In this document: positions 38,671-52,185 of the stretch, in pieces | Numbering within the stretch: the first letter of the stretch is position 1 | Layout of the letters: the number at the start of each line of letters is the position of its first letter | Assembly (NCBI RefSeq): GCF_029963765.1 | Contig: NZ_JALBYU010000002.1 | Coordinates: 124,001 to 188,000 of the forward strand | Direction of reading: 5' to 3' | Source: Pseudomonas sp. UYIF39 | Lineage (GTDB): Bacteria; Pseudomonadota; Gammaproteobacteria; Pseudomonadales; Pseudomonadaceae | DNA: 64,000 bases | Position numbers and translations under genes: made by a program | Notes under the pieces: model-generated | What the model saw: only the letters and a program-made list of their open reading frames with translations | The model's database searches: none | What the model was told of the DNA's origin: nothing

Positions 38671-38722
38671 AAGTCGACGCGAAATATCCTGCAAAAAAGC
38701 CAAATGGTGGCCTTTCATCCAA

Positions 38723-38751
38723 TTGTCATATTTCAGCCATAGAGTGTTCAC
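38723..38751 (+). promoter_or_regulatory. PHO box of pstS
   Basis: TTGTCAT-ATTT-CAGCCAT-AGAG-TGTTCAC gives three repeats at 11-base steps, the first two fitting the PhoB consensus CTGTCAT. A -10 (GATACT, 38762-38767) follows 10 bases later, as expected of PhoB-activated promoters. Confidence 0.8.
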
Positions 38752-39997: not shown

Positions 39998-40015
39998 TTG
40001 TCATCTTTCTGTCAT
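39998..40015 (+). promoter_or_regulatory. PHO box of pstC
   Basis: TTGTCAT-CTTT-CTGTCAT matches the PhoB consensus in 13 of 14 repeat positions. It ends only 22 bases before the first ATG of pstC; the expected -10 and start of transcription would coincide with that ATG. Confidence 0.85.
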
Positions 40016-49590: not shown

Positions 49591-50913
49591 TCAGTCGGTG
49601 GCGCTGATGACCCGGGATTTGGTGACCTGAGCCGGCGCAAAATGGCAGGTAAACGTGCTGCCATGCCCCGGCACGCTGCTGATTTCCATCCGTGCGCGAT
49701 GTCGCAGCAACACGTGTTTGACGATCGCCAGCCCCAGGCCCGTACCTCCAGTGTTGGAGTTTCGGCTCGAATCGACACGGTAGAAGCGTTCGGTCAGACG
49801 CGGCAGGTGTTTGCTGTCGATACCGATGCCGGAGTCCTGCACGCTCAAGTGTGCGCCTTGCTCATCACCCCACCAGCGAATGCGGATATTGCCTTCGGCC
49901 GGGGTGTATTTCACCGCGTTGAACACCAGATTGGAAAACGCACTGCGCAATTCGGCTTCGCTGCCCTTGAGCAGAATCGTCGGGTCGGCTTCCAGGGTGA
50001 TCTTCTGATTGCGCTGGGCGGACAGTTGCTGAGCGTCGCTCTTGATCGATTGCAGCAAGCCGTCGATGGCCACCGGCTGGTTGTCCGACGGGTAATCGGT
50101 GGCTTCCAGTTTGGCCAGCAGCAGCAAGTCGTTGAGCAACGTCTGCATGCGCGCACCTTGCTGCTGCATTTGCTGTAAGGCACGGGTCCAGCGCGGGTTC
50201 ACGTCCTCGACGTTGTCGAGCAGGGTTTCCAGATAACCGCAGATCACCGTCAGCGGCGTGCGCAGTTCATGGGAGACGTTGGCGATGAAGTCTTTGCGCA
50301 TTTGTTCCAGTTGATGGATGCGCGTCACGTCGCGCACCAGCATCAGGTGTTCATTGTTGCCGTAGCGGGTGATGTACAGCTGAATGCGTAGGCGATCGTT
50401 GATCGGTGAAGGGATTTCCAGCGGCTCGGCGTAACTGTCCTGCTCGAAGTATTCCTTGAAGCGCGGATGGCGGACGAGGTTGGTGACCGGTTGGCCGCTG
50501 TCTTGCGGGGTCTTGAGGCCGAGCAGGGTTTCGGCGGCGCGGTTCCACCATTCGAGGTTGCCGTCGCTGTCGAGCATGATCACTGCATCTTTCAGCGCAG
50601 CGGTGGATTCCTGAACACGGTCGATCACCGCTTGCAGGCGCCCGCGTACTCGTTGGTCGCGGCGTTGCAGGTGGTAGATGCTGTCGAACACTTCGCCCCA
50701 CAGGCCATAGCCATCGGGCGGTGCCTCATCGGATTTGTGCAGGCGCAGCCATTCGTGCAGTCGCAGCAGTTGCTTGAGGGTCCAGGCCAGGTAAAGGCCC
50801 AGGCCCGCGGCGAGGCTCCAGCCGTAGTAGCCGGTAATCAGGCCGATCACCAGGCAACCGGTCACCAGCAAAAGCATGTGGCGGATCAGGGTGCCATGCC
50901 AGTTTTGGTTCAC
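49591..50913 (-). CDS. phoR: Phosphate regulon sensor kinase PhoR
   Basis: GTG start, 440 residues. Two N-terminal membrane helices (about 10-50), a charged DUF3329-like cytoplasmic region and PAS domain (about 95-200; VIMLDSDGNLEWWNRAAETLLGL), then HisKA with phospho-acceptor His215 in ANVSHELRTP, and a HATPase domain with N-box FSNLVFNAVKYTP, G1 QDSGIGIDSKHLP and G2 GTGLGLAIVKHVL. It phosphorylates PhoB when phosphate is low and is held inactive through PhoU/Pst. Follows phoB by 45 bases in one operon. Confidence 0.96.
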   Translation of the reverse strand: MNQNWHGTLIRHMLLLVTGCLVIGLITGYYGWSLAAGLGLYLAWTLKQLLRLHEWLRLHKSDEAPPDGYGLWGEVFDSIYHLQRRDQRVRGRLQAVIDRVQESTAALKDAVIMLDSDGNLEWWNRAAETLLGLKTPQDSGQPVTNLVRHPRFKEYFEQDSYAEPLEIPSPINDRLRIQLYITRYGNNEHLMLVRDVTRIHQLEQMRKDFIANVSHELRTPLTVICGYLETLLDNVEDVNPRWTRALQQMQQQGARMQTLLNDLLLLAKLEATDYPSDNQPVAIDGLLQSIKSDAQQLSAQRNQKITLEADPTILLKGSEAELRSAFSNLVFNAVKYTPAEGNIRIRWWGDEQGAHLSVQDSGIGIDSKHLPRLTERFYRVDSSRNSNTGGTGLGLAIVKHVLLRHRARMEISSVPGHGSTFTCHFAPAQVTKSRVISATD

Positions 50914-50958: not shown

Positions 50959-51648
50959 TCAGGCTTTGGTAGAAAACCGGTAGCCGGTGCCGCGCACGGT
51001 TTGTACCAGATTTTCGTACGCCTCACCGAGGGCTTTGCGCAGGCGACGGATGTGCACGTCGACGGTGCGTTCTTCGACATAGACGTTGCCGCCCCAAACC
51101 TGATCCAGCAACTGGCCACGGGTGTAGGCACGTTCCTGGTGGGTCATGAAGAATTGCAGCAGGCGGTATTCGGTCGGGCCCATCTCGGCGGGCTTGCCGT
51201 CGATGGTCACACGGTGGCTGATCGGGTCCAGCAGCAGGCCGCCGACTTCGATCGGTGTCTCGCCATCGGTTGGACCGGCACGGCGCAGCACTGCTTTCAG
51301 GCGCGCGACCAGCTCGCGTGGGGAAAAAGGCTTGGTGATGTAGTCATCGGCGCCGACTTCCAGGCCCTGGATCTTGTTGTCCTCTTCTCCCTTGGCGGTG
51401 AGCATGATGATCGGGATGTCCCCGGTCAGCTCATCGCGCTTGAGGCGTCGGGCCAACTCGATGCCGGACGTGCCGGGCAGCATCCAGTCGAGCAGGATCA
51501 GGTCCGGCTTGCGGTCGACGATGATGGCGTGGGCCTGTTGTGAGTTCTCAGCCTCTATGCAGTCATAGCCGGCCATTTCCAACGCAACGGCGATCATTTC
51601 GCGAATGGGCGCTTCGTCGTCGACGATCAGGATGCTCCTGCCAACCAT
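50959..51648 (-). CDS. phoB: Phosphate regulon response regulator PhoB
   Basis: 229 residues. Receiver domain with DD at 10-11, phospho-acceptor Asp54 in [11 protein letters not shown], and Lys106; OmpR-type winged helix from about 130 with [77 protein letters not shown] precedes the ATG. Phosphorylated PhoB binds PHO boxes (CTGTCAT-type repeats) to activate pst, pho and related genes. A PHO box for autoactivation lies at 51703-51720. In operon with phoR. Confidence 0.97.
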
Positions 51649-51661
51649 GCCTTTAATCCTC

Positions 51662-51679
51662 TTGTCATTTAACTGTCTT
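51662..51679 (+). promoter_or_regulatory. Second PHO-box-like site, opposite orientation
   Basis: TTGTCAT-TTAA-CTGTCTT lies on the plus strand 14 bases before the phoB ATG. It faces away from phoB towards the gene at 51802 and is followed nine bases later by TAGATA, a possible -10 (51689-51694). Confidence 0.55.
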
Positions 51680-51702
51680 GCGCCGCATTAGATAACGGAA
51701 TT

Positions 51703-51720
51703 ATTGCAGTCGTGTGACAG
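51703..51720 (-). promoter_or_regulatory. PHO box of phoB
   Basis: On the minus strand, CTGTCAC-ACGA-CTGCAAT, followed after about 10 bases by TCTAAT as -10. It matches PhoB autoactivation sites in structure and lies 55 bases before the phoB start. Confidence 0.75.
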
Positions 51721-51801
51721 TATTTTAGTCGCCCGGCGATTGTTGTGATCCTGAACTAAACTCTAATTCCGAATCCTGACAACCACAAAAGGAAGGTTTC
51801 C

Positions 51802-52185
51802 ATGAAGCAATACTCGCAATCCTTTAAAGCTTTGATGCTGACTGCGGTCATGGCTTTGCCATCAATGGCCTTCGCGGCTGAGCCTGCAATGATGAAAGAC
51901 GGGATGATGGTCGATCATAAGGGTATGACGGTGTACACGTTCGACAAGGACGCTGGCGGCAAGTCTATGTGTAACGGTGATTGTGCCAAGAACTGGCCAC
52001 CGATGATGGCCCCGGCGGGTGCCAAGGCCGAAGGCAAATGGAGCGTCATCAAGCGTGATGACGGCATGATGCAATACGCTTACGACGGTAAGCCGCTGTA
52101 CACCTTTATGAAGGACGAAAAGCCCGGAGAAATGAAAGGTGACGGCATGAAAGACGTGTGGCACGTGATGCGCGAGCACAAGTAA
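51802..52185 (+). CDS. Secreted COG4315 repeat protein
   Basis: 127 residues with signal peptide MKQYSQSFKALMLTAVMALPSMAFAAE. The mature part holds two repeats, GMTVYTFDKDAGGKSMCNGDCAKNWPP and GKPLYTFMKDEKPGEMKGDGMKDVW, of the Lipoprotein_15 (Yx(FWY)xxD) family. Met-rich segments and the two Cys in SMCNGDC are noticeable and could bind metal or redox partners. Function unknown. AAAGGAAGG precedes the ATG. It is divergent from phoB and lies downstream of the plus-strand PHO-box-like site, so Pho control is possible. Confidence 0.88.
   Translation: MKQYSQSFKALMLTAVMALPSMAFAAEPAMMKDGMMVDHKGMTVYTFDKDAGGKSMCNGDCAKNWPPMMAPAGAKAEGKWSVIKRDDGMMQYAYDGKPLYTFMKDEKPGEMKGDGMKDVWHVMREHK

Follow-up and report, generated by a model that had tools for sequence, protein, structure and literature searches.

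The region upstream of phoB in Pseudomonas sp. UYIF39 carries two PHO boxes that face each other, and it raises the question of what the second box, close to the phoB start codon, does there. The initial annotation of this DNA had described the pair as lying around a shared -10 and offered two ideas for it: divergent PhoB promoters that exclude each other, one for phoBR and one towards a COG4315 gene, or a built-in brake on phoB. Both boxes are indeed present in the window, i.e. the whole stretch of 64,000 nucleotides that was analyzed, at 51662–51679 on the plus strand and at 51703–51720 on the minus strand. The features of the locus are as follows.

49591–50913, minus strand: phoR, sensor kinase, 3′ of phoB and on the same strand (open reading frame; TIGR02966, 461 bits, cut-off 334.2)
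50959–51648, minus strand: phoB, phosphate regulon response regulator, 229 aa (open reading frame; TIGR02154, 362 bits, cut-off 296.2; PF00072 and PF00486)
51662–51679, plus strand: reverse-oriented PHO box, proposed PhoB autorepression site, TTGTCATTTAACTGTCTT (TTGTCAT-TTAA-CTGTCTT), conserved, with 2 mismatches to CTGTCATNNNNCTGTCAT
51679–51680, minus strand: predicted phoB transcription start, 7–8 nt beyond the end of TCTAAT
51687–51692, minus strand: predicted -10 of the phoB promoter, TCTAAT, inside TTATCTAAT, part of a conserved core
51703–51720, minus strand: activating PHO box of phoB, CTGTCACACGACTGCAAT (CTGTCAC-ACGA-CTGCAAT), 3 mismatches to CTGTCATNNNNCTGTCAT, 10 bp from the -10
51756–51762, plus strand: CTAAACT, putative -10-like motif of the COG4315/PF03640 gene (CTAN[AG]CT conserved)
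51802–52185, plus strand: gene for a COG4315-type secreted protein, PF03640 Lipoprotein_15 (113.1 bits, cut-off 24.4), divergent from phoB

Both phoB and phoR exceed the NCBIfam equivalog cut-offs. The COG4315 label of the divergent gene comes from the initial annotation, while the domain found here is PF03640. The phoB protein of the window shares 97–99% identity with those of named P. fluorescens strains and 99% with those of P. migulae and P. frederiksbergensis. With the phoB start at ATG 51648 (minus strand), the intergenic region between phoB and the COG4315 gene is 153 bp. For comparison, upstream regions of phoB were collected from 149 genomes of the genus and 80 named loci. Ten Halomonadaceae loci (L074–L083), which lack the promoter core described below, were excluded, leaving 219 regions in which the same species may be counted twice, once in each set.

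The minus-strand box is the ordinary PhoB activation site of phoBR. The gap between this box and TCTAAT is exactly 10 bp, as for a PhoB-activated promoter reading in the minus direction, and the core [GC][TC]TATCTAAT, a pattern drawn up after inspection of the upstream sequences, precedes phoB in all 149 genus genomes and all 70 named Pseudomonas-family loci (219/219), whereas it was not found at any of the ten Halomonadaceae phoB loci. The same 10-bp distance separates PHO boxes from the hexamers TAGAGT and TAGGGT upstream of two other genes of the window, which from their translations we take to be pstS and pstC. Before pstS, three tandem half-sites (CTTTCAT, TTGTCAT and CAGCCAT) follow each other with an 11-bp period at 38712–38740 (+), and TAGAGT (38740–38745) overlaps the last base of the third. 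Between pstS and pstC, a PHO box with 1 mismatch lies at 39998–40015 (+), 10 bp before TAGGGT, which suggests a separate PhoB promoter for pstC. When 51600–51850 was scanned with the sigma70 consensus, one promoter-like site came up on the minus strand (ATCACA, 16, TAAAAT; 51749–51722) and none on the plus strand. The minus-strand site lies upstream of the activating box and could be a basal phoB promoter; TAAAAT or TAAATT occurs in many fluorescens-group rows. In P. aeruginosa, PhoB binds its own promoter and deletion of phoB lowers the promoter (PMC12506140). As far as the consulted parts of that article go, these data fit autoactivation, the activating half of the arrangement, and are silent on a brake.

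Since TCTAAT lies 10 bp beyond the activating box, the phoB start is placed at about 51680 or 51679. The plus-strand box, hereafter the reverse box, would thus begin at the start point and cover about the first 18 transcribed bases (+1 to +18), pointing back at the promoter and leaving 13 bases before the phoB ATG. It contains the tracts TGTCA and TGTCT 6 bp apart, i.e. with the canonical 11-bp half-site period, and matches 12 of 14 consensus bases, with 2 mismatches as against 3 in the activating box. The two boxes face each other across 51687–51695 with their centres 41 bp apart. If the start is as predicted, the reverse box is both antisense and overlapping with the polymerase footprint, as is an autorepression site of the E. 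coli type.

We propose that the reverse box is a site of PhoB autorepression, i.e. a brake that acts when PhoB~P is abundant, and we consider this somewhat probable. It is the better of the two earlier ideas and our best reading: position, strand, conservation and the precedent of E. coli support it, with PhoB binding and repression as its presumed part. PhoB~P at 51703–51720 would replace a -35 and help RNA polymerase start at about 51679/51680. Once accumulated, PhoB~P would also fill the reverse box, which overlies the predicted start and the beginning of the transcript. A filled box would occupy the place that RNA polymerase needs, so that the phoB promoter would be shut by its own product. 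The net circuit would join positive feedback to a concentration-limited brake.

The precedent is the E. coli phoB promoter, where two antisense PhoB half-sites around the -10 bind with a KD of 4.9 µM and their mutation relieves autorepression (Gao and Stock 2018, PMC6194859, in the parts consulted). The authors argue that the coupling of autoactivation with autorepression makes the response faster but leaves its steady level no higher. As in E. coli, a second, antisense PhoB site beside the activating PHO box is placed to block RNA polymerase, and positive and negative feedback are coupled, which is proven in E. coli and proposed for Pseudomonas. The likeness is one of position and orientation, not of sequence homology. 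Whereas in E. coli the repression site is located around the -10, with tracts 5 bp apart, the Pseudomonas reverse box lies downstream of the -10 with the canonical 6 bp between tracts, and it is restricted to certain lineages. In V. cholerae, the phoBR promoter has a strong activation site and a weaker repression site (Diniz 2011, as cited in PMC6194859), and this repression site is said in the same passage to differ in position from that of E. coli. One difference counts against a brake: the E. coli repression site is the weak one, unlike the Pseudomonas reverse box, which surpasses the activating box by consensus match. If affinity follows consensus match, a Pseudomonas brake would act early and strongly, not late.

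The reverse box, with at most 2 mismatches, is found in 88 of the 149 genus genomes and in 30 of the 70 named loci. On the phoB codon tree, the clade that has L001 (the window) and L015 as its defining loci, both of which bear the box, comprises 56 loci, and every one keeps the box with 2 mismatches; presence of the box in 60 of the 100 tree loci needs 3 changes. Among 59 box-bearing loci the 18 columns of the reverse box have changed 3 times in total, and those of the activating box equally often, whereas the 94 fourfold sites in the codon alignment of phoB average 8.63 changes each, with 6 sites invariant. When sets of 18 fourfold sites were drawn 100,000 times, no set reached so low a total. 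As these loci were picked for carrying the box and include related, non-independent rows, the count of changes is biased, and the 56/56 figure is less so. In the same loci the columns upstream change 9.07 times each and the last ten bases of the leader 5.70 times, values taken at gapless fixed offsets and therefore inflated by insertions, which leave the fourfold comparison unaffected. Three loci (L049, L056 and L058) carry one extra phoB codon. Judged by these sequence comparisons, the reverse box is strongly conserved and is not there by chance.

Strong conservation can also have other grounds. The stretch might be conserved as phoB leader or initial transcribed sequence, with a part in ribosome access, mRNA stability, promoter escape or the choice of start, and might resemble a PHO box only secondarily; we regard this as possible but rather unlikely. 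The 4-base spacer is nearly as fixed as the half-sites in the 59 box-bearing loci, more than PhoB should need, and the GAGG ribosome site lies directly next to the distal half, both of which fit a leader role. So does the proximal half (AAGACAG/ATGACAG), whose range far exceeds that of the distal half: even putida-like leaders contain AAGACA, as AAGACAC or similar, with a different sequence where the distal half would be, and the single P. aeruginosa record examined has AAGACAG only. This is wider than a two-half-site operator needs and leaves room for a role in transcription initiation, which may account for some of the conservation. Against a leader role, putida-like leaders replace the distal half and still precede phoB, and folding of the phoB leader gave no RNA structure (box unpaired, z-score 0.16, 113 of 200 shuffles folding equally well or better). 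The ATG inside the box lies at varying distances from the phoB ATG, with no conserved overlapping frame. An upstream open reading frame starting at this ATG is ruled out by the varying distance.

Leaders of other lineages also bear on the leader role, as both half-sites are present with differing spacers in several of them. When full-box and putida-like leaders are set aside, 55 distinct ones are left, of which 16 contain a box with at most 4 mismatches, as against a mean of 0.94 and a maximum of 4 in 300 shuffles, a contrast that is not a probability because the rows are related. Apart from full-box leaders, 26 distinct ones have the proximal half in register; in these the distal half holds 0.74 bits and the spacer 0.52 bits, so that by this alignment the distal half appears to be kept somewhat better than the spacer, by a modest difference; the 1.63 bits of the proximal half follow from its use as the selection criterion and are not evidence.

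A further explanation is that the reverse box is bound by another regulator of the OmpR/PhoB family, or by PhoB as a helper, e.g. as a dimer that reaches across the promoter to touch the activating one. A site over +1 to +18 normally obstructs the polymerase, which counts against such a role. The fixed distance between the reverse box and the -10 in the full-box leaders compared would suit it, and so would the report that BfmR, another response regulator, binds and activates P. aeruginosa phoB (PMC8025907). However, the BfmR motif published there, TACAA-N3-GATACA in the parts of the article consulted, is unlike the reverse box. We consider this explanation quite unlikely.

The divergent arrangement put forward at first, in which the reverse box and 51687–51695 would drive a transcript into the COG4315 gene and the two promoters would be mutually exclusive, finds less support still, and we regard it as very unlikely. 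In its favour, the box is on the right strand with a GATAAC hexamer 11 bp beyond it, and 84 of the 88 genus genomes (of 149) that bear it with at most 2 mismatches also have COG4315. The shared -10 holds for the minus direction, with TCTAAT at 10 bp, and fails for the plus direction: at the canonical 10 bp beyond the reverse box stands AGATAA, which matches TATAAT at 1 of 6 positions. At 11 bp there is GATAAC (4/6, without the first and the last T), and TTAGAT (3/6), nearest to the -10 that had been proposed at 51689, lies 8 bp beyond the box. The reverse box thus lacks a -10 hexamer at 10 bp, unlike the phoB, pstS and pstC boxes of the window. The plus-strand hexamer region is fixed regardless, because the same bases form the minus-strand -10.

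Moreover, the COG4315 gene has a conserved motif of its own, CTAN[AG]CT, which we take to be a sigma70/sigmaS -10. It occurs in 94 of 138 distinct intergenic regions (mean 2.3, maximum 7 in 50 shuffles). Of 150 usable loci, 121 have it ahead of COG4315, both where the reverse box is present (87/110) and where it is not (34/40); 8 of 158 loci had no usable start and were left out. The motif most often lies 45–46 nt before the COG4315 start (63 loci), though some of the 150 starts are misplaced and 14 loci put it 7 nt before the assigned start.

Among the 116 genus genomes that bear COG4315, 22, putida-like ones among them, have no reverse box (at least 7 mismatches). Conversely, six box-bearing genomes (L015, L056, L095, L143, L155 and L231) have no adjoining COG4315, i.e. 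no tblastn match at E 1e-3 within about 1 kb of the phoB core, so that a COG4315 gene does not follow wherever the box is conserved. In four of these (L015, L095, L143 and L155) ubiA is the next gene recognised, lying on the phoB strand and ending 107–174 nt from the phoB start; plus-strand open reading frames of at least 60 aa antisense across ubiA are spurious, as we take them. L231 has its own plus-strand open reading frame of 279 aa beside phoB. The presence of the reverse box where no recognised plus-strand gene follows supports a brake.

The number of matches to CTGTCATNNNNCTGTCAT over the window as a whole says little. With at most 3 mismatches there are 7 in the window, as against 3.95 ± 1.90 in shuffled sequence, and 10 of 100 shuffles reached 7, so that the total for the window is not significant. 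What stands out is that three of the seven lie between phoB and COG4315, within 153 bp for which the shuffled rate predicts about 0.01; two of the three (51651–51668 and 51662–51679) have one half-site in common. In the whole genome of 6.59 Mb, 36 sites with at most 2 mismatches compare with 11 for a reversed control pattern, and 320 with at most 3 mismatches compare with 191. Chance is better judged from conservation than from match counts, and although those 11 control matches and the lack of significant enrichment in the window would allow for it, the position and conservation of the reverse box make a chance match extremely improbable.

If the reverse box is a brake, it would differ between lineages. 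A further, rather doubtful idea is that in the fluorescens and syringae lineages the box binds PhoB at least as well as the activating box, giving a tight and dominant negative feedback (a pulse or a clamp), while putida-like genomes have no brake and P. aeruginosa has half a site; the time course of the phosphate response would then vary among Pseudomonas lineages owing to a single 18-bp operator with an origin independent of that in E. coli. A second, differently placed and lineage-restricted brake in Pseudomonas would suggest that this circuit design evolved more than once, and the fluorescens and putida groups would offer a natural comparison, with and without the brake, of its value. No repression site at a Pseudomonas phoB is reported in the titles and abstract openings covered.

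Three further records touch on the arrangement of the locus. A 92.8-kb record called a P. aeruginosa plasmid (L262, NZ_CP070468.1) carries phoR, phoB, a divergent 384-bp gene for a hypothetical protein and ubiA, and looks like a stretch of chromosome. At two of the Halomonadaceae loci (L075 and L077), several sense-strand TGTCA tracts lie before phoB, replacing the Pseudomonas arrangement.
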